This document shows, one piece after another, positions 2,330 to 26,614 of a stretch of DNA of 51,675 bases. The position numbers were made by a program, and so were the translations under genes. The stretch is from Candidatus Moranbacteria bacterium RIFOXYA12_FULL_35_19. GTDB lineage: Bacteria > Patescibacteriota > Minisyncoccia > Moranbacterales > UBA2206. Location: NCBI GenBank assembly GCA_001784805.1, contig MFSE01000008.1, forward strand, positions 1 to 51,675, in the 5' to 3' direction. How positions within the stretch are numbered: position 1 is the stretch's first letter; the number at the start of each line of letters is the position of its first letter. The notes below the pieces were generated by a model, which saw only the letters and a program-made list of their open reading frames with translations, was not told the origin of the DNA and did no database searches.

Positions 2330-5300
2330 TTAATAATTTATTTCCACCACGCCTTGTTTAGTCACGAATTCTGGAATAACTAAGCCGGTTAATTTTTCTC
2401 TGATTGGGCGCTTATCCGCGCTACTATCATCATCACTATCATCTAAATCTTCTGGTTTGGACATAATAATCGTAATATCTTGTTTTGATCGATAATGCGA
2501 TTCCACTGCATCAGAAGATGTGCGCAAATTTGTAGCAAACATTCGATATTTCTCTTTCTTTTTGTCAAAAATCCAAATATATTTCAGTTTAGTATTTTTC
2601 AAATCAGTCAAAACGCCGTTGTATTCTATGGAAACAAGTTCAATATTTTCTATCCATTTGATATTAGGAAATTTTTCCCGATAAGTCAGCGCGGTTGTAT
2701 TGCCGGCTTGATCAGTGATAGTAGCGGTGGTTATTTCGTCTTTTTGTTTTTTATTCTTTTTAAAAACTAAATTTTTAGCATAAACCACCGTCGTTGGATT
2801 TTCATCAATCCCCTCCACTGCAATTTCATTAGTTTTAGTATCAAAAAACATTCGCACTTCCGGCGGAGTTTGATCTAATGCTGGCAGGAAAACCGTTTCG
2901 CCCACTTTCGGTTCTAGCGAAAAATCAATCTCGCCATCTCCCTCAAAATCTACTACCAAGGAATTTGCGTTTTCAATAGTACCATCAGTCACTTCCATTT
3001 CAACTTTGGTTTCAGTTGAAGTTGGAATACCGGCAAAAGTTGTTTTCCCTATAACTTCACCGTTTTCCATTTCTTGCATTTCCAAAGTGAATGAACCCTC
3101 TGCCAAGCCATCTAATTTTACAGTGTGAGTTGTAAAAGCCGGCAAAGAAATATATTGTACCTCACCAAATCGTTTATACACTGCTCCTTGCATAGTTGAA
3201 ATTGTAGCGCTGATTTCATTGCCAGTGCTATCATAAGCGGAAAGCGCCAAAGGCGAATGCAAAATATATTGCAAGCGTTTTTCAGAAGTAATTGAAGGTT
3301 TTGAATCAGAAAGATAATTTGGCAATGCCGTCTCTGATTGAGTTAAAATATTATCTTTGATAAAATCTCGTAGCTGTTCAACTTCTAAAATATCCGCATG
3401 TTCTCTTTTTAAGTTATAAAATGTGTCATATTTCTTTAAATCCACCCAATATCTTTTCACATTTTCCGCGTCCGTACTCATTGCCAAAGCGCTTGACGCC
3501 ACCACGGTGCCATCGCCATCGATCACCATCTCTGGTGAATATTGCAATTTCGGTTGTGTTTCCAAACAAAAACTATGAAAATTTTTCACACATTCTATCC
3601 CCGTCCAATATTTTACCGTCCCCAAAGTTTCTTCTCCAAAGCCAGCAATTTGATAAACCGAAATATTTGAAGGAGCCGTCCAATTATCATCTAGCGTTTG
3701 ATGAGTATTTTCTCCATATTCCAATAAATCGGAATTTATTTTGCTCGGGCTGGCGAGATCATCTGAATCAGCCGAAACCTTTCCTTCTTCGTCCAAAAGA
3801 AAATTATGCAATTCATCTGACTCGTCAATTTCGTGGCCATATTTATTGATAAATAAATCTGTGAGTGATCCATCTTCAAATGAAATGACAGGAGTGCTGA
3901 CGGCACTGCCATCACCGGAAAAATATGCCTCCGATGGAAGTAAATTATAGGCGCTCGACATATTTTTTCCCAAAATCCTAGCATTTTTTGGAGAAACAAA
4001 AAACGATAGCCAATCAGTTGGCAAGCCTTGATCAAAACCATGTAAAAGTCCACCGATAGCTTGCGGTGTTCCAACTTGTGGCACTCCTACAAAAACAATT
4101 TTGTCAATTAAACTTTGGGCTTCTGATCCAAGCTTGTTAGTCAAAGCTTTTGCCAAAAGTCCACCATTGGAATGCGCCACAATCGTCACCTTGCCGGATT
4201 TGGAAGTGCTAGCCAATCGCCTAAGCTCTTTTATGATATACGGTGCGGCTGATTTTCCTATATAGGAAATTTTTTCATCATCAATCACCCCCGAATCCAA
4301 AATATCTTCCAGCGAAAATCGCCAATCATAAGGAACGGACGAATAATCCGCGATAATTCCGTCATCATTTTTCCATTTATCCAAATCAGACAAAAACGAT
4401 TTATAAATATTTTTTTGACCTATCGGCAAAACATTCGTTTCATCCAATACATCTTTGGTATAAATATCATCATTTAAACTTTTTCCATCTTCGTCTAGGA
4501 ATAATTTTTCCACATCCGCATTGCGATTAGGTTCCCAAAGCTGGTTATCTTCATCATATAATCGACTAGCTTCCAATCCCAGCAAAAAAAGCACGCTCGA
4601 TGCACCGGCAGAAACTTCATTTGGAATTCTTGTCGCGCTCCAACTTTCCAAAGTATAATCCCCGCTAATTTTTTCTCCACCAACATTAGGAATAGTTTCA
4701 ATTTCGGGGCCAGCTGGATCATTATACCAATTATTTTTCAAAATAACTTTGGTTTTGTCGTGAAAACTCGGATCATTCTCCGCTATATTTTTGCAATAAT
4801 TAGTGCAAATTGGACCATAAATTGAATAATCATCTGGGTAATTGCTTTTGCATTCATCAAAACAGTTTTCAAATAATTCGCTATATACTTCCGGCTTGGT
4901 AACTTTGGATATTAGCGCCGTATTTTGAGAATTATTTTCAAAATTAGAATTTTCAATTTGCAAATAACTCTCTGTGTTCCACTCGCTGTCATATTCCATT
5001 TCCGCTTGTACATCAGCATAAGCGTTATTTTCAAAATCGCAATTTTTCATTTTCACTCTGCCTGAATAAAAATTTATTGCTGGAGCAAATACTTCTACAG
5101 GAGAGGCATACGCTGTAGGAAACAACCAATTCTTAATGCTATTATCATTCATTCCAAAGCCGGGACAATTATCCGTATCATAATTATAATAACCGCCCGT
5201 CTGGGAAAATTCCACGAATTCAAAAATAGATTCCGGATCATCAGCATAATCTCCCGGACCATAAAATTCAATATTAGCCGAGGCTGACATAAAACAATGC

Positions 5301-7502: not shown

Positions 7503-8426
7503 AATTTCTTTTATGGAATAGTTCATTCTGTTTTGGCTTTTGAAATAGTTCTTGATTAGGATATCTGCCAAAAGTCCGAAAATGAAAAGTTGAATGCCGA
7601 TCATAATGAAAAACACTCCGATAAGTGGCCAGATTTTGTCGGCAATTGCTCCGCCCATAATTTTTTCCACTACCATCCAAGCTAGAATTAAAAAACCAAT
7701 AAAGGACAAAAAAATTCCTGATCCGCCAAAAAGATGCAATGGGCGGTTGGCATATTTTCGCCAAAACCAAATGGAAATCATATCCACAAATCCTTTGATG
7801 GCTCTTTTCCAATTATATTTTGTCACACCGTGAATTCTCGGGTGATGCGAAACCTTCACTTCTCCCACTTTGTATCCTTGAATTTCCAAAAGCGCAGGAA
7901 TGAAGCGATGCATTTCTCCAAAAAGATCCACATCGTGAAAACATTCGCGCTTGTAAGCTTTGAGCGAACAACCACTGTCATGAATTTTATCTTGAATCAA
8001 AATTTTTCGAAGCAGATTAGCTCCGCGAGAAAAAAACTTTTTCGAAAAAGAATCTTTTCTTTGCCAACGCCAACCGGCCACAACATCATAACCTTTTTCT
8101 ATTTCCGCTAAAAGCAAAGCGATGTCCGCCGGATCATTTTGCAAATCACCATCCATCATCACAATAATATCGCCCAATGAATTTTTTATCCCTGCATCAA
8201 AAGCCGCCGTTTGACCAAAGTTTCTTCTAAACTCAATTAATTTCAAAGGTGCTAGCCCCTGACAGTTTTCTACTGTTTTATCTTTTGATCCATCATCGAT
8301 AAAAATTATTTCATAGCTCTTTCCCAGTGCATCGCAGGCTTCTTTGATTCTCCTGTGGAGTTCTATAACATTCCCCTCTTCATTTTTGAGTGGAACAATC
8401 ACTGATAAATTTAGTTTATCGTTCAT
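7491..8426 (-). CDS. Family 2 glycosyltransferase with two C-terminal membrane helices (GtrB/DPM1-like)
   Basis: 311 residues. The GT-A domain has the family 2 features SVIVPLKNEEGN at the start, FIDDGSKDKT at about 40-50 and MDGDLQNDP (the DxD region) near residue 90. Two hydrophobic helices follow at about 230-255 and 265-290. This is the layout of polyprenyl-phosphate sugar synthases such as GtrB and ArnC, which load a sugar from a nucleotide donor onto undecaprenyl phosphate at the inner face of the membrane. The donor sugar cannot be told from sequence. ATG 8426 begins MNDKLNLSV; the C-terminus runs into the TTCATG repeat. Confidence 0.9.
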   Translation of the reverse strand: MNDKLNLSVIVPLKNEEGNVIELHRRIKEACDALGKSYEIIFIDDGSKDKTVENCQGLAPLKLIEFRRNFGQTAAFDAGIKNSLGDIIVMMDGDLQNDPADIALLLAEIEKGYDVVAGWRWQRKDSFSKKFFSRGANLLRKILIQDKIHDSGCSLKAYKRECFHDVDLFGEMHRFIPALLEIQGYKVGEVKVSHHPRIHGVTKYNWKRAIKGFVDMISIWFWRKYANRPLHLFGGSGIFLSFIGFLILAWMVVEKIMGGAIADKIWPLIGVFFIMIGIQLFIFGLLADILIKNYFKSQNRMNYSIKEIHEA

Positions 8427-21699: not shown

Positions 21700-21821
21700 A
21701 AGCTAGTTCAAATATTTATTTCATTTTGTCAGCACAAATTGATAAAATCAACTTCTAATTACATTTTTTAAATTAAAAAAAATCCCCATCAGATTAATTT
21801 ACATATCTTTCCATCCCCTTA

Positions 21822-21936
21822 TTATAAACTACTTTCCAATATTTCCCAATATCCGCCTTTGTCGGGACCGATTCTTTTGAGCAAGCCTTTTTTAAGCCAA
21901 AATTTTTGCCATTGACATATTTTCAATTTCTGGTAG
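21822..21936 (-). pseudogene. Relic A: winged-helix C-terminal tail
   Basis: On the minus strand about 36 codons read LLKRIGPDKGGYWEIL and a TAA stop (21822-21824) after WQKFWLKKG. This is the kind of tail found at the C-terminus of AlbA_2-type ATPases and Fic-like proteins (DNA-binding winged helix). No start or upstream domain exists, so it is a fragment. It is nearly identical to relic B and holds the promoter of RNA A on the opposite strand. Confidence 0.65.
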
Positions 21937-21939
21937 TAT
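21912..21939 (+). promoter_or_regulatory. Strong promoter of small RNA A
   Basis: TTGACA (21912-21917), 16 bases, TAGTAT (21934-21939) preceded by TGG (extended -10). The stretch from about 21841 to 21942 is almost base-identical to 24418-24518, where the same promoter precedes RNA B. Confidence 0.75.
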
Positions 21940-21945
21940 TATAAA

Positions 21946-22046
21946 TACTAAGACCTGTATTCCGAACTGTTGCCGGACGGTGGCGTGATTGGGATTTCTC
22001 AATCTAGGAACGTGGTCGAGAACAACCCCCTTTGGGGCTGTTTTTT
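21946..22046 (+). ncRNA. Structured small RNA A, convergent with DUF3800; candidate DUF3800-type RNA motif
   Basis: About 100 nt between a strong promoter and a terminator, without an ORF of note. A closing stem pairs GACC (21952-21955) with GGTC (22014-22017) and TTCC (21960-21963) with GGAA (22007-22010). Inside are two hairpins: GCC/GGC with a 7-base loop (21972-21984) and GATTGGG/CTCAATC with loop ATTT (21987-22004). The terminator ends at the stop codon of the DUF3800 gene. Comparative work has described several 'DUF3800' RNA motifs beside such genes; membership here is inference from position and structure and was not tested. Confidence 0.65.
22021..22046 (+). terminator. Terminator of RNA A
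   Basis: AACAACCCC and GGGGCTGTT pair with one mismatch around CTTT and are followed by six T. It lies two bases from the DUF3800 stop codon on the other strand. Confidence 0.8.
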
Positions 22047-22047
22047 A

Positions 22048-22704
22048 TTAATGAAAATTCCACTCATCTTCAATGCGCTTTTTGATAATATTTTTATAAA
22101 TACCCGCATCATTTTTATCCTTTTGGTATGATCTATAAATTGATCCTGCCACCATATCAGCCATCTGAATCAAGACATCATTTTTTGAATCAATAAGTTT
22201 GCAATTTTTCAAAATTTTCTTTTCATTATTATTCAGCTCTTTTCTTAAATAAGTCGTAAAACTTTTTCTAAAAATCCTATCTCCACTTCCGTCTATTCGT
22301 ATTTTTGCATCTAAAATAGTGTTTTCACTATATTTCAGCATCGTCTTTATTATGTACCCATAAAAAGAATTCTTATCTGTTCTAAGATGCTTGCTGTATA
22401 TATTTTTTTTATCAACAACTAAACATCTTACACGAAATTTAAATTCAGATATTTTCTCAAGAAATTTTTTTCGAACATTTTTGTTAGACTTGTGAAATTT
22501 AAATTCCACATCATCTCGCCTGAAAAGTTCTCGTCGTAACTCTTTTATAGCCACAGCCGTCCTTTCCACCTCCAAATTATCATCAAAAATTATAGCGCTT
22601 ATAATAAAAAATTCGCTTGATCCCTTACTAAGCTTAAATCCCGCATCACCAGAGTCATCTATAAAAACCAATGTATTATTATCTTTTTGTTTTCCTTTAT
22701 TCAT
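22048..22704 (-). CDS. DUF3800 domain protein
   Basis: 218 residues. The start carries VFIDDSGDAGF (residues 13-23), the first acidic motif of DUF3800, and the end carries DVLIQMADMVAGSIYRSY, the second motif with conserved Asp and QxAD. The family is thought to have an RNase H-like fold with an acidic active site and is frequent in phage- and defence-associated regions; its activity is not established. The gene has a close promoter whose leader is nearly the same as that of the 136-aa gene (24578-24988), and a structured RNA is transcribed toward its 3' end. Confidence 0.88.
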   Translation of the reverse strand: MNKGKQKDNNTLVFIDDSGDAGFKLSKGSSEFFIISAIIFDDNLEVERTAVAIKELRRELFRRDDVEFKFHKSNKNVRKKFLEKISEFKFRVRCLVVDKKNIYSKHLRTDKNSFYGYIIKTMLKYSENTILDAKIRIDGSGDRIFRKSFTTYLRKELNNNEKKILKNCKLIDSKNDVLIQMADMVAGSIYRSYQKDKNDAGIYKNIIKKRIEDEWNFH

Positions 22705-22785
22705 TTTTTATTTTATACCATTTCAACGATTGAAATTATTTTTTGTTTCAAAACTTCAAATCACAAACTAATTATAATCTACTTA
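22705..22785 (-). repeat. Conserved leader of DUF3800 gene, repeated at 25003-25055
   Basis: TTTTATACCATTTC-A-ACGATTG and the following GTTTCAAAA-TTCAAA recur with few changes upstream of the 136-aa gene, and the distal half recurs at 24362-24400. On the minus strand it gives the -10 TATAAA (22712-22717), seven bases from the ATG at 22704. It passes without a break into relic C. Confidence 0.7.
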
Positions 22786-22882
22786 TGAATTATTTCCCAA
22801 TATCCGCCTTTGCCGGGACCGACTCGTTTAAGCTTGCCCTCTTTTTTCAATCTAGCTATATCTCTTTTGACTGTTTTTCCAT
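22779..22882 (-). pseudogene. Relic C: winged-helix C-terminal tail with RBS and one-base frameshift
   Basis: The minus-strand frame reads KTVKRDIARLKKEGKL and then RVGPGKGGYWEIIHK before TAG (22779-22781). Just upstream is AGGAGG (22890-22895) seven bases from an ATG (22880-22882), but that ATG reads MEKQSKEI and stops. Adding one A in the A-run after MEK would give a 34-residue ORF ending in the winged-helix tail. Either this is a decayed fragment or the indel is real in this strain only. Confidence 0.55.
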
Positions 22883-22912
22883 TTTACCACCTCCTGCAAT
22901 TTGGTTCAAATC

Positions 22913-22949
22913 AAAAAAACAGTTCACAAAAGAACTGTGTGGTTTTTTT
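22913..22949. terminator. Bidirectional terminator downstream of the STAS-like gene
   Basis: ACAGTTC (22919-22925) and GAACTGT (22932-22938) form a stem with A-rich and T-rich runs on both sides, so it can work in both directions. It stands where RNA A and RNA B stand in the other two units. Confidence 0.75.
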
Positions 22950-22964
22950 ATACAAAAAACAAGA

Positions 22965-23330
22965 CTAGCAATTTTTGCAAGTTACCAAAGAATTTATGTC
23001 CGCTTTTTCCGGTTCAAATTTTACATCTCCTTTTTTTGGTAAAGCTCTGTTAGCGGCGACTATTCTAAGCATTTTTTCTATATCCTCATTAGCGTTAACA
23101 AATGCGATTTCTTTTTTATTTTTAGTTTTCCTTGAAAAATCCTCCTTCATCACTAAAAGCGCGTGTGCGGCCGAACGAGAAACAAATTCCACCTTTTGAA
23201 AATCTAAATCAACCAAATTATACTTGGATGCAGAAATAACCTTTTCTAACGAATCAATCAGATCTCTCGAGCCGATAATTGGAGCAATTTCCCTAAACAA
23301 ATTTATTGTGGTTTTTTTGATATTTTCCAT
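22965..23330 (-). CDS. STAS-like protein (DUF4325 type)
   Basis: 121 residues from ATG 23330 (MENIKKTT); a GTG at 23345 is the longer alternative. The signature is REIAPIIGSRD near the N-terminus and then DLDFQKVEFVSRSAAHALL at about 45-63. The Ser-Arg-Ser lies where anti-anti-sigma STAS proteins carry the phosphorylated serine (inference). The C-terminus ends CKNC, a possible metal or disulfide pair. Its neighbour upstream is a GHKL ATPase, a pair resembling the RsbV/RsbW partner-switch arrangement, but no sigma factor is nearby. A palindrome overlaps the promoter in front of it. Confidence 0.75.
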   Translation of the reverse strand: MENIKKTTINLFREIAPIIGSRDLIDSLEKVISASKYNLVDLDFQKVEFVSRSAAHALLVMKEDFSRKTKNKKEIAFVNANEDIEKMLRIVAANRALPKKGDVKFEPEKADINSLVTCKNC

Positions 23331-23348
23331 ATATTTTTTCAACACTTC

Positions 23349-23377
23349 ACTATACTATAGTATAATTGAAAAGTCAA
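23349..23377 (-). promoter_or_regulatory. Internal promoter of the STAS-like gene with 14-base palindrome
   Basis: On the minus strand TTGACT (23372-23377), 17 bases, TATAGT (23349-23354). The perfect palindrome TATACTATAGTATA (23351-23364) overlaps the -10. This suggests that the STAS-like gene can be expressed apart from the ATPase and may be repressed. Confidence 0.55.
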
Positions 23378-23378
23378 T

Positions 23379-24233
23379 TTATTCCAAATATCCATTTTTA
23401 TAAATATCCACAGATTCGGTAGGTCTTGGTATTCTGTAAGCAATAATAACACCTTGCCAATAAAAACATGGGAGATTAAACAATTTTTCACTTTTTTTAG
23501 AAGAAACAAGAGCAGCCGAACCAGATAGAAAAATAAATTCTCCATTCATAGCATTGCACACAACGCTTTTTGAAGTTCTCACGCCATATCCCCTCTCTTT
23601 ATTTAACTTAGTAGAGTTTCCCTTCATTGAACGCAAAATAGCTTCACTGTCTGTAAGATTTAAACCATTCTCTTTTTTGTAAGTTTCAGCAAGCCCCCTT
23701 CCGCAATCAACAATACAAATATCCAAATAGTCTTTCTTGGGATAGAATTGTCCGAACAAATATCCTTCGTTTTGCGTGCTATGTTCAAATATATTGGTCA
23801 CTAATTCACTAATTGGATAAAGAATGGCGCTACTTGTGCCAGGGACAGAACCAATGACCTTTAAGATTAAATTGGAAAAAAGAGATTCTAATCGCTCCCT
23901 ATCCGAATTTTTTTCTTTCTTAAGAATACTAATTGGAATATAATTCTTTTTTAATTGAACTTCTTTCTGAAAAGAAAGCACCGAATCAATACCTTTGGGA
24001 AATTTTACCGCGTCTAAATATGATTTGACTGATCCATTCGCACTATATGAACTTTTTGTAGAATTTATATGCGCGCTTAACGGTAAAATCAAAAGAGGAT
24101 AAGCCCAATCAATTTTTGATAAATTGAAATTAAAATTTTCGTTTTTGCTATGATTTCTTAGTGCCAAATACAAAACCAATAATTGCCCAGACAAGAAAAT
24201 ATTTTTTGGTTTTAAAACGATAACTTCTTTCAT
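23379..24233 (-). CDS. GHKL (histidine-kinase-like) ATPase
   Basis: 284 residues. The ATP-binding fold occupies the C-terminal half: the N-box is ELVTNIFEHS (143-152), G1 is CIVDCGRGL (173-181) and G2 is RGYGVRTSK (214-222). The first 110 residues match no domain I know. No histidine phospho-acceptor domain or membrane segment is present, so it is not a classical sensor kinase; with the STAS-like gene next to it, it could be the kinase half of a partner switch. The pair is in an accessory island with DUF3800 and AbiE genes, so a defence or stress role is possible. Confidence 0.78.
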   Translation of the reverse strand: MKEVIVLKPKNIFLSGQLLVLYLALRNHSKNENFNFNLSKIDWAYPLLILPLSAHINSTKSSYSANGSVKSYLDAVKFPKGIDSVLSFQKEVQLKKNYIPISILKKEKNSDRERLESLFSNLILKVIGSVPGTSSAILYPISELVTNIFEHSTQNEGYLFGQFYPKKDYLDICIVDCGRGLAETYKKENGLNLTDSEAILRSMKGNSTKLNKERGYGVRTSKSVVCNAMNGEFIFLSGSAALVSSKKSEKLFNLPCFYWQGVIIAYRIPRPTESVDIYKNGYLE

Positions 24234-24403
24234 TTTTTTATATTTATTATTTACAACTCAATTATAACACTTTCTTATCAAAGCCCAGCTTAAACTCCAC
24301 GATAAATGACCTAAAAATTTTCTCATCTCCTCCCCCATCTCATGTCCAAAAATCCGAAGATTGATTTTTGTTTCCAAATTTCAAATCACAAACTAATCAT
24401 AAT

Positions 24404-24518
24404 CTACTTTTGAATTATTTCCCAATATCCGCCTTTGTCGGGACTAATTCTTTTGAGTAAGCCTTTTTTTAAGCCAAAATTTTTGCCATTGACATATTTT
24501 CAATTTCTGGTAGTATTA
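24404..24518 (-). pseudogene. Relic B: winged-helix C-terminal tail, frameshifted
   Basis: The minus-strand frame reads KRISPDKGGYWEIIQK and a TAG stop. Compared with relic A, one extra base in the A-run breaks the frame between LKKG-like and LLKR-like segments. It lies upstream of the ATPase gene and downstream of the 136-aa gene, and it contains the promoter of RNA B on the plus strand. The region 24234-24403 between it and the ATPase has no gene; it holds a -10 like ATTATA (24261-24266) and a partial copy of the leader repeat. Confidence 0.6.
24489..24516 (+). promoter_or_regulatory. Strong promoter of small RNA B
   Basis: TTGACA (24489-24494), 16 bases, TAGTAT (24511-24516) after TGG. 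It is the second copy of the RNA A promoter, identical in the boxes and spacer. Confidence 0.75.
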
Positions 24519-24520
24519 CA

Positions 24521-24577
24521 TTACATAAGAATCCCGGCCAGAAGGTAACACTTCACATCGTGGCGGGGGTTTTTATT
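24521..24577 (+). ncRNA. Short structured RNA B, convergent with the 136-aa gene
   Basis: A short transcript of about 55 nt. CCC-G-GCCA (24533-24540) pairs with TGGC-G-GGG (24561-24568), with one G-G mismatch. Within lies GAAG/CTTC (24541-24554) with loop GTAACA. The outer stem is followed by a T-run, so the RNA is itself a terminator-like structure ending at the stop codon of the gene on the other strand. It shares the promoter with RNA A but no body sequence. Confidence 0.55.
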
Positions 24578-24988
24578 TTATCCCGGCGGAAAACATGACA
24601 TCAGATATTTTCTCTTTCTTTTTTTGTCTTCTTTTATTTGCACATAAAACAATTCTTTCTCCATAGTTAGACCAGCGAATCTATATAAAATTTCTTTTTT
24701 CTCAAACAATTCAGTTTTTTCAATTGGTCCAGTTTTTGAATATTTTATCAACTCACAAGTAGCTTTAAAATATTTTAATCTTTGCATTCTATCCTTAACT
24801 GATTTTTGAAAAAGATGCTCGCGAAAATAATCTAGGAATATTTTCTCTTTTTTAAAATAGGCAGATCTTATATATGGTCGTCTTTTTGTTTTCTTCTTAA
24901 TTTCATCAAAGACAGCCATCGCTCCATGCATAACCTCGCCATAACTTGTTCCAGAAATTTTTTTTGATTTTGTTTGGTATGGAATCAT
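24578..24988 (-). CDS. Conserved 136-aa accessory protein, unknown function
   Basis: 136 residues, basic. Features are RRPYIRSAYFKKEKIFLDYFREHLFQK, a helical RMQRLKYFKATCELI, and a C-terminal EILYRFAGLTMEKELFYVQIKED followed by RKYLMSCFPPG. The end resembles small nuclease-like toxins of the RelE/BECR type in general shape, but I cannot name a family. Similar proteins seem to be common in CPR genomes (recollection, not tested). Its promoter/leader matches that of DUF3800, and a small RNA is transcribed toward its 3' end, so the two genes may belong to one kind of module. Confidence 0.6.
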   Translation of the reverse strand: MIPYQTKSKKISGTSYGEVMHGAMAVFDEIKKKTKRRPYIRSAYFKKEKIFLDYFREHLFQKSVKDRMQRLKYFKATCELIKYSKTGPIEKTELFEKKEILYRFAGLTMEKELFYVQIKEDKKRKRKYLMSCFPPG

Positions 24989-25002
24989 CTTTTGTTTTTG
25001 TA

Positions 25003-25055
25003 TTTTATACCATTTCGACGATTGGGATTGATTTTTGTTTCAAAATTTCAAACAT
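25003..25055 (-). repeat. Conserved leader of 136-aa gene (copy of DUF3800 leader)
   Basis: Nearly identical to 22711-22760. On the minus strand it supplies the -10 TATAAA (25004-25009), 15 bases from the ATG at 24988. No relic lies on its far side; instead there are word repeats and a GC-rich palindrome before AbiEii. Confidence 0.65.
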
Positions 25056-25090
25056 AAAATATAATAATCAAGATACAAAATACAATAATC

Positions 25091-25126
25091 CCGCCTGCCT
25101 TGCCGTTCGCAAGACGGCGGGCAGGC
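25091..25126. repeat. GC-rich palindrome
   Basis: GCCTGCC (25093-25099) pairs with GGCAGGC (25120-25126), with further partial pairing inside (TTGCCGT / AGACGGC). It is much richer in G+C than its surroundings and belongs with similar units at 10051, 27712, 36167 and 37430. Confidence 0.65.
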
Positions 25127-25130
25127 AAAA

Positions 25131-25961
25131 TCAATGCAACTTTTTTATTTCTTCTTTTAGAATATCCTTTATATTTTTTCCGAGATTTTTGACAAATTCC
25201 CTGTCGGCAATGAAATTTTCCAGATCAAGCACAACGCTTCGACTGTCAATCTTGTCTATAATAGCTGAAAGTTTTTTTCTTAATTCTTCCATATTTTCAA
25301 CTTCTTTCACACAAGCCAAATTAAGATTAACTTCTTTTTGCAAATACCACATTAGATCAAAATAGTCCCGCCCCTTGACACTAATCAAAACATCGCCTTT
25401 CTTATTGATTTTTTCCCATTTTCGATGAAGTATTGCCCTTATTTTCGTTGCCATAAGCGTTGACAAATCAAAAGTTTTGATTAGCATTGATAGGTTAAAT
25501 TTGAAAAGTGGTCTGATTTCCGTTTTATGTTTTTTGCAAAAATCCGATCCGTCAAAAATTTCCACTTTCAAATATAACCAGTCCGACTGCGAATCATTAG
25601 CTATGCCAAGCTGTCCGAGAATTGGAAATTTCAAGTATATTCTAAATTTTTGTATTTTTGTTGCTACCGACAAACCAATCTCTTTTTCAAAATACATCTT
25701 CAGACTTTCGGCTAAATTATCAATTTTTATCTGCCCGCTAAGATCAACGAAATCCAAATCTTCTGAAAGACGAGGCAAGCTATAACACTGCGAAAGGACT
25801 GATCCGCCATAAAAAACTAAGTTGCCATATTTCTTGTCGGAATAGATAAAATTAAGTGCGAATACCTGCAAATAATTTTTCAGTAGATTTAATTTATATG
25901 AATCTGTTTTGTCAGAATTCTCTTTGATAATATTTTCTAATTCTAAAATTATTTTTTTCAT
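25131..25961 (-). CDS. AbiEii/AbiGii-family nucleotidyltransferase toxin
   Basis: 276 residues. The nucleotidyltransferase core begins with VFYGGSVLSQCYSLPRLSEDLDFVDL (about 48-73): the GGS loop and the DxD-like EDLDF metal site. The second half has KIRAILHRKWEK and VKGRDYFDLMWYL, the conserved RDxxDL-type motif of this family. Type IV AbiE toxins transfer nucleotides, and related MenT toxins modify tRNA; the target here is unknown. It is coupled to the upstream antitoxin-like gene by ATGA overlap (25958-25961), the classical order. Confidence 0.9.
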   Translation of the reverse strand: MKKIILELENIIKENSDKTDSYKLNLLKNYLQVFALNFIYSDKKYGNLVFYGGSVLSQCYSLPRLSEDLDFVDLSGQIKIDNLAESLKMYFEKEIGLSVATKIQKFRIYLKFPILGQLGIANDSQSDWLYLKVEIFDGSDFCKKHKTEIRPLFKFNLSMLIKTFDLSTLMATKIRAILHRKWEKINKKGDVLISVKGRDYFDLMWYLQKEVNLNLACVKEVENMEELRKKLSAIIDKIDSRSVVLDLENFIADREFVKNLGKNIKDILKEEIKKLH

Positions 25962-26614
25962 AGATCTTTTTTTGTTAGATAATTGAAAATTTTCCTCATT
26001 TTTTTTGATTTTTCCAAATAAACATATTCTTCCAATTCTTTGAAATCTTTTTTTGCAAAACTATCCAGATTCAATCTCAACTCATCTATTTGTTCCGCAG
26101 AGAACAAAATATTTTTTCGAAAATATAAAAAATCGAACAAAGCTTTGGCGCAAGTAGCCTCAGCAATCAAAAAATCACCACTTTTGTTAATTTCAAAGCC
26201 AGTGAATAATTCTTCTTTGATATTATAATATTTAAAAATACCCAGATGATTAGAAAATTTATTAGTCTTTTTTTTACTGACTAGCGTATAAGAATTGACT
26301 GATTCAGACATTACTCCATATTTTTCAAGGACATATTCCAAGCTTAGATAACTAGGCTCATATATTATATTTCCCACAAATTCTACATACCTGCTGATGC
26401 TATTTTTTCTGTTTATATTATCTAAAAAATTTTTACTCACATACATTCCTCTTTTTAGAGACTTCACTGTTCCATTTTTGGAAAAACGGTACAGCAAAAC
26501 TTTCAGATAATTTTTATCCTTTTCTATCGGCATCAAATCGTCAATGGTAAAATAAGGAAGTTTCTCAATAGCTTCCCTGATTTTGGATGACTTGTTTTTT
26601 CTAACTTCACTCAT
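25958..26614 (-). CDS. AbiEi-family antitoxin / transcriptional regulator
   Basis: 218 residues. An N-terminal winged helix (FTIDDLMPIEKDKNYLKVLLYRFSKNG, then LKRGMYVS, about 25-65) is followed by the AbiEi body with YEPSYLSLEYVLEKYGVMSE and a C-terminal AEATCAKALFDFLYFRK. In known AbiE systems this protein neutralises AbiEii and represses its own operon by binding inverted repeats. Here a palindrome covers the -10 of the operon promoter, which fits that role. Confidence 0.88.
   Translation of the reverse strand: MSEVRKNKSSKIREAIEKLPYFTIDDLMPIEKDKNYLKVLLYRFSKNGTVKSLKRGMYVSKNFLDNINRKNSISRYVEFVGNIIYEPSYLSLEYVLEKYGVMSESVNSYTLVSKKKTNKFSNHLGIFKYYNIKEELFTGFEINKSGDFLIAEATCAKALFDFLYFRKNILFSAEQIDELRLNLDSFAKKDFKELEEYVYLEKSKKMRKIFNYLTKKDL

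Follow-up and report, generated by a model that had tools for sequence, protein, structure and literature searches.

In type III toxin–antitoxin (TA) systems, a tandem-repeat RNA is encoded upstream of the toxin gene, in the same direction and under one promoter, with a terminator between the two (PMC5086642). The abiF RNA motif is another RNA antitoxin, which neutralises the AbiF protein by direct binding (PMC12373285), while DUF3800 proteins, for which an RNase H fold is predicted, are associated with non-coding RNAs (ncRNAs) (PMC10910872). The DNA studied here is contig MFSE01000008.1 (51,675 nucleotides; contig C8 of a 0.99-Mb genome) of Candidatus Moranbacteria bacterium RIFOXYA12_FULL_35_19, a member of the Candidate Phyla Radiation (CPR), and is referred to in its full length as the window. 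It carries an array of three accessory units, two of which consist of a protein gene and a short convergent ncRNA: an unnamed 136-aa protein with RNA B, and a DUF3800 protein with RNA A. The 136-aa protein and RNA B are tied together by linkage and covariation, and may represent an RNase toxin and its RNA antitoxin.

RNA B and Its Linkage to the 136-aa Protein Family

The module of the 136-aa protein and RNA B comprises the following features:
24578–24988, minus strand: gene for the 136-aa protein, founder of a CPR-wide family and a predicted BECR-like RNase
24522–24576, plus strand: RNA B, a structured ncRNA, recognised by RNA model R1, fold and linkage
24489–24516, plus strand: promoter-like site of RNA B, TTGACA-16-TAGTAT with TG before the −10 box, conserved in the family
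24465–24518, plus strand: 54-bp block identical to 21888–21941, containing the RNA promoter and the sequence upstream of it

Members of the 136-aa family, some of them fragmentary, were found in 18 of the 384 genomes of the class and at no fewer than 105 loci of GTDB genomes, nearly all of them titled as CPR lineages. The RNA model R1 was built from a consistent subset of 24 RNAs, because the CGG/GCC block was one base off register in an alignment of 55 RNAs. Genome matches of R1 weaker than about E 1e-5 (e.g., L176–L178) were left out, being plain GC-rich terminators without the inner helix. A convergent 54-nt R1 match was detected at 76 of the 77 distinct 136-family genes, with the end of the RNA located from −29 to +27 nt relative to the stop codon.

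RNA B of the window matches R1 with 26.1 bits (E 7e-4), and its predicted fold has an energy of −23.5 kcal/mol (z −5.4) versus −14.3 for the opposite strand. When 77 RNAs were aligned to the model, 96.2% of the cells paired, 16 of the 18 pairs changed on both sides, and none of 500 shuffles reached any of these measures; the alignment, having been made on the model, leans to structure. An independent MAFFT seed alignment of 24 RNAs gave 97.3% paired cells and 10 two-sided pairs. Conservation in the 77 RNAs extends to unpaired positions, namely a G-G mismatch (G17, 96%; G89, 92%), C22 (95%), and the loop UUnAUA, in which U33 is conserved in 100% and A34 in 94% of the RNAs. The strand opposite the gene folds better in 71 of 78 cases (p 9e-13) and carries 171 G-U pairs, compared with 82 on the other strand. 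In addition, a TTGAC box is found upstream of the RNA in 60/78 cases versus 7.6% of shuffles, and the promoter-like score is higher for the RNAs (10.7) than upstream of the genes (8.7; p 1e-17). Linkage and covariation thus establish the pairing of this protein with this RNA. A cmscan search of Rfam 15 with the window region and 15 relatives gave no match at E ≤ 1 at the RNA site, and RNA B was accordingly rejected as a known RNA. A literature search on structured RNAs of CPR bacteria and on convergent RNA antitoxins found nothing relevant.

At most loci, RNA B is a single 54-nt unit, and at a few (e.g., L143, L147, L149, and L150) it is present in two copies. Loci L119, L124, L133, L143, L147, L149, and L150 include some with two tandem gene–RNA modules and others with one gene and two RNAs. 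At another locus, L193 (G278:C136, 2701–4304), three degenerate copies of RNA B are interspersed with small genes, among them ORF6N and PIN, next to genes for glycosyltransferases; this second array resembles that of the window but comes from a different family.

The 136-aa Protein

Searches of the 136-aa protein against Pfam, NCBIfam, PADLOC, PHROGs, and PDB sequences were negative or returned noise, which rules out membership in a known family of these collections. AlphaFold models obtained from two alignments (pLDDT, 93.7 and 96.2) agree on helices followed by a four-strand meander, with two short extra strands ahead of the meander. Residues H58, S131, R36, K49, and R70 are invariant in 86/86 sequences. 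Members of the BECR/PBECR group of RNases are recognised by a conserved His in a helix and a Ser/Thr in strand 4 (PMC5512222); the modelled 136-aa protein shares the N-terminal helical segment and the four-strand meander, with the invariant H58 in a helix and S131 in the last strand as the candidate counterparts. A Foldseek comparison with viral models (BFVD) placed phage polyvalent proteins at the top (probability, 1.00; TMq, 0.58), with a marginal E-value of 5e-3, whereas HigB2, a CdiA toxin, and RelE recurred among the weak hits of the fold search against PDB. The PBECR4 model, applied to 188 genomes of the class, gave nothing above its cut-off. The RNase assignment therefore rests on topology, two residues, and the marginal Foldseek hit, there being no strong PDB match and none to a Pfam PBECR model, and the 136-aa protein is likely, though not proven, to be a BECR-like RNase. 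It also differs from the described BECR/PBECR RNases in being encoded by a stand-alone chromosomal CPR gene, with no phage copies found.

Comparison with Described RNA-Associated Systems

The second gene–RNA module of the array is a DUF3800 module, with these features:
22048–22704, minus strand: gene for the DUF3800 protein (PF12686)
21952–22021, plus strand: RNA A, the DUF3800-IX RNA (RF02968), recognised by its score and fold
21912–21939, plus strand: promoter-like site of RNA A, matching the RNA B site exactly

The DUF3800 protein of the window scores 62.8 bits against PF12686 (cut-off, 21), and RNA A scores 45.5 bits against RF02968 (gathering score, 36.8); a terminator hairpin follows RNA A, to about 22046. 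RF02968 occurs in 14 of the 384 genomes; at 13 of the 14 loci, the RNA and a DUF3800 gene converge, with the RNA abutting the stop codon. At locus L049 (G140:C38, 1501–1566), a DUF3800-IX RNA stands without a DUF3800 gene, beside a 2-hydroxyacid-dehydrogenase-like gene. The two modules of the window thus resemble each other in having a convergent structured ncRNA that abuts the stop codon, and in their promoters: that of the ncRNA is exactly common to both, and the gene leaders are 84% alike. In contrast, neither the 136-aa protein nor RNA B is related in sequence or structure to DUF3800 or RF02968; the pair has no relevant Pfam match and no Rfam match at E ≤ 1, and so falls outside the DUF3800 module. 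The DUF3800 protein and its DUF3800-IX RNA may be viewed as an analogous, non-homologous module.

As in the type III TA systems ToxIN, CptIN, and TenpIN, an endoribonuclease toxin would be directly neutralised by a structured RNA, the likeness being one of proposed action. RNA B is neither placed upstream in one operon with a terminator between nor composed of tandem repeats, and since this arrangement departs from the definition of type III TA, only a type III-like action is proposed. AbiF/Abi_2 with the abiF RNA motif (RCd22 in C. difficile) is similar in that a conserved ncRNA motif lies beside a toxic protein and neutralises it by direct binding (PMC12373285). However, two RNA motifs precede AbiF, whose structure links it to the ancestors of Cas13, whereas the model of the 136-aa protein shows a different fold and RNA B converges on its gene.

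Proposed Roles of the Protein and the RNA

Two of the three units would be protein–RNA modules of one architecture, i.e., a gene and a short ncRNA converging on its stop codon from a strong promoter of its own. The most likely role of the 136-aa protein is that of a BECR-like RNase toxin; RNA B would be its antitoxin, binding and blocking the protein through the loop UUnAUA, the G-G mismatch, and the unpaired C. The abiF RNA motif provides the precedent for direct neutralisation of a toxin by such an RNA (PMC12373285). RNA without an intact gene is found in several genomes: solo copies are present in G159, G318, and G365, and copies beside a damaged gene in G322 (early stop) and G153 (shortened gene). 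G258 has lost the RNA together with the middle part of the gene. No clear intact 136-family gene without the RNA was seen among the 77 distinct genes, a one-sidedness that favours a toxin with an RNA antitoxin.

The tight linkage and the conserved structure would fit any ribonucleoprotein, and in the neighbouring analogue an RNase H-like fold goes together with ncRNAs (PMC10910872). Conceivably, then, the two act together as a working ribonucleoprotein, with RNA B serving as cofactor, guide scaffold, or substrate rather than as an antitoxin. We consider this unlikely, as the RNA occurs without the gene in several genomes and, at 54 nt, shows no variable guide segment.

Its convergent position abutting the stop codon, its strong promoter, and the complementarity to the 3′ end of the mRNA that this layout brings would also suit a cis-antisense regulator of type I-like action, pairing with the 3′ end of the mRNA or interfering with transcription with no protein binding. 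Such complementarity is automatic in any antisense arrangement, and an antisense RNA does not need the conserved unpaired bases that are seen here along with compensatory stem changes across distant CPR lineages. The conservation of the loop and the mismatch points to recognition by a protein rather than antisense pairing. Furthermore, the usual type I toxins are smaller than the 136-aa protein. Antisense regulation is given a still lower probability than a ribonucleoprotein.

Repeated Flanks and Proposed Exchange of Units

The remaining features of the array and its surroundings are as follows:
24996–25069, minus strand: leader of the 136-aa protein gene, 84% identical to the DUF3800 leader
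24366–24470, minus strand: junction B and relic B, an SLFN_AlbA_2 gene end (ISPDKGGYWEI)
23379–24233, minus strand: HATPase-like protein of unit 2, with a weak HATPase_c match and an orthologue in G004
22965–23345, minus strand: STAS-domain protein of unit 2, by domain match
22919–22938, no strand: bidirectional terminator 3′ of the STAS gene
22741–22845, minus strand: junction C and relic C (VGPGKGGYWEI)
22704–22779, minus strand: leader of the DUF3800 gene
21818–21941, minus strand: end A, i.e., relic A (IGPDKGGYWEI) and the RNA promoter block, 92% identical to 24393–24518
25131–26614, minus strand: AbiEi/AbiEii type IV toxin–antitoxin pair adjoining the array

All elements listed in the preliminary description are present at these places. 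One correction concerns orientation: RNA A and RNA B are encoded by the plus strand and point towards the genes that they accompany. Junctions B and C (24366–24470 and 22741–22845), said to share about 80 bases, proved longer than claimed, aligning over 105 bp at 86% (E 2e-31). Ends A and B (21818–21941 and 24393–24518), said to share about 100 bases, are 92% identical along 126 bp. For the leaders (22704–22779 and 24996–25069), said to agree in about 45 of 50 bases, identity is 84% along 76 bp. No exact direct repeat of the region is longer than the 54-bp block (21888–21941 and 24465–24518; 54/54 bases identical), compared with at most 15 bp in 50 mononucleotide shuffles, and the sigma-70-like promoters of both RNA A and RNA B (TTGACA-16-TAGTAT, TG upstream) lie inside it. 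In their interiors, the 136-aa unit and the DUF3800 unit have no significant similarity to each other.

Relics A and B begin at a common point, and relic C is about a dozen residues longer. The tail GPxKGGYWEI, described as common to all three, is found in relics A and C, whereas relic B reads ISPDKGGYWEI. The repeated tail represents the winged helix that SLFN_AlbA_2/HATPase_c_4 genes encode at the C-terminus; matches to the junction tail elsewhere are SLFN_AlbA_2 genes, of which those at L042 and L043 are intact (459 and 462 aa, ending in KRIGPDKGGHWEVI and KRIGPDKGGYWNVTGK). In G159, the solo RNA B and an intact SLFN_AlbA_2 gene are neighbours, ordered as RNA B and relic B are in the window. 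The simplest reading is that an old SLFN_AlbA_2 gene stood upstream of the flippase and that its end came to be used as a recombination flank.

Three strains of the genus were compared at this locus. The window has the 136-aa, ATPase/STAS, and DUF3800 units, G005 has the 136-aa unit only, and G004 has AbiEi/AbiEii and ATPase/STAS at 95–99% DNA identity to the window, with no 136-aa unit and, before the end of the contig, no DUF3800 unit. AbiEii of G004 is joined to the ATPase leader inside a 26-bp repeat, TTTGAARTTTGGAAACAAAAATCAATC, copies of which bound the 136-aa unit in the window. The data support gain or loss of units at this locus, presumably by recombination. The ATPase gene of G004 (L035, 3519–4372; 98.8% DNA identity) is one base shorter and apparently frameshifted. 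At a second site in the genus, between prfA and rmlD, the 136-aa module is present in G004 and G006 and absent from G000, G001, G002, G003, and G005.

In G016, which belongs to another genus of the same family, a DUF3800 gene opens with the first ten codons of the 136-aa family (MIPYQTKSKK), a start shared by six genes in the 384 genomes, the other five being members of the 136-aa family. This chimeric gene is followed by a convergent RNA-like stretch (L037, 4041–4140) with a promoter of the same type; the stretch matches no Rfam family and is possibly a further type of DUF3800 RNA.

The two promoters enclose both gene and RNA, so that recombination within the promoter regions would move the two together, swapping a protein jointly with its cognate RNA and leaving like flanks around unlike contents. 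For the window, such a promoter-to-promoter swap is suggested by the pattern of repeats. The exchanged unit would thus be a protein with its convergent RNA, a point missed by the preliminary description; the DUF3800-IX RNA is a known family, whereas RNA B is not in Rfam.

The earlier observation that flanks are conserved while contents vary holds at this locus in the three strains, and the proposed exchange of accessory genes through the flanks finds support in the alignment of strains, which differ by whole units, and in the joint within TTTGAARTTTGGAAACAAAAATCAATC. Its interpretation was too general beyond this locus. Strains differing by whole units would likewise be left by a general site of cassette exchange that has its own dedicated junction, but such a site is improbable, because among 187 relatives the junction, expected there with many different contents, occurs at this locus only, in three genomes, and what is repeated consists of promoters and the end of a gene. 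Integrase-driven cassettes were rejected: no Phage_integrase gene lies on the window contig, the two of the genome being on contigs C1 and C13. Integron-type arrays are alike in having different small genes between repeated flanks, and unlike in that neither a contig integrase nor an attC-like site was seen here and the flanks are promoters and a gene end.

Assessment of the Proposed Explanation

Least probable among the alternatives is that RNA B is a bidirectional terminator of the 136-aa gene and nothing more, which would suit its stem and U-run, and the T-runs on both strands in many relatives, but not the conserved and covarying inner helix, G-G mismatch, and loop, the strand bias, the promoter on the far side at a fixed distance, or the solo copies with promoter and without gene (L163, L167).

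Several points speak against an exchanged toxin and RNA antitoxin. The RNA B layout, a single convergent unit at the 3′ end of the gene with its own promoter, differs from type III TA. The 77th gene (L122, minus strand) has, in the right place, an RNA candidate of a non-significant 8.3 bits. RNA B is also terminator-like, and part of its conservation may stem from that, while the solo RNAs could be decay products. In the fold search against PDB, every match had an E-value of 0.2 or more, and the 136-aa protein matches none of the PBECR models of Pfam. No homologue of the family was found in IMG/VR, phage, or plasmid collections, which sets it apart from many TA modules and led to the rejection of carriage by mobile elements. 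The G004 joint would fit short-repeat recombination in gain and loss alike. We infer toxicity, RNA–protein binding, RNase activity, and recombination as the cause of the swap.

On balance, the evidence leans slightly towards the explanation that RNase toxin and RNA antitoxin pairs are exchanged between shared promoters, and that the array is a small accessory (defence-type) island inside a polysaccharide locus, built by recombination between repeated flanks; this judgement applies to the explanation jointly. A wider proposal is more tentative, with somewhat less than an even chance: that the 136-aa protein and RNA B found a new CPR-wide type of RNA-antitoxin system, in which a single-hairpin RNA transcribed towards the gene holds a BECR-like RNase, and that this system and the DUF3800 RNAs share a broader architecture of convergent pairs whose two promoters serve as homology arms for the joint exchange of a protein and its matching RNA.

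Neighbouring Elements

The AbiE pair next to the array was recognised by PADLOC (4e-45 and 7e-29) and by Pfam AbiEii (1.5e-18). Between AbiEii and the leader of the 136-aa gene, the window has a palindromic insert, CCTGCCCGCCGTCTTGCGAACGGCAAGGCAGGCGGG (25090–25126), which is missing in G004 and looks like a dispersed repetitive extragenic palindrome (REP)-like element. Locus L037 (G016:C7) harbours, at 5000–5300 and 8000–8300, two copies of another short RNA-like transcript with the same type of promoter, TTGACATATTTT...TAGTATTA, one beside a tRNA-like stretch and the other beside a reverse-transcriptase-like open reading frame, which suggests that this is the stable-RNA promoter of the lineage.

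Significance

The novelty of the locus is the unnamed module of the 136-aa protein and RNA B, for which a TA role is our best guess. The covariation of 16 of 18 pairs and the linkage to 76 of 77 genes make RNA B a strong candidate for a new family of RNAs. The module also suggests a concrete way to read the RNAs of DUF3800 genes, as partners that converge on a protein gene and are perhaps antitoxins. A compact protein–RNA module is notable in CPR bacteria, given how small their genomes are and how few of their toxin or defence systems have been characterised. A promoter-to-promoter swap, if true, would explain why a protein keeps its matching RNA when units are exchanged.

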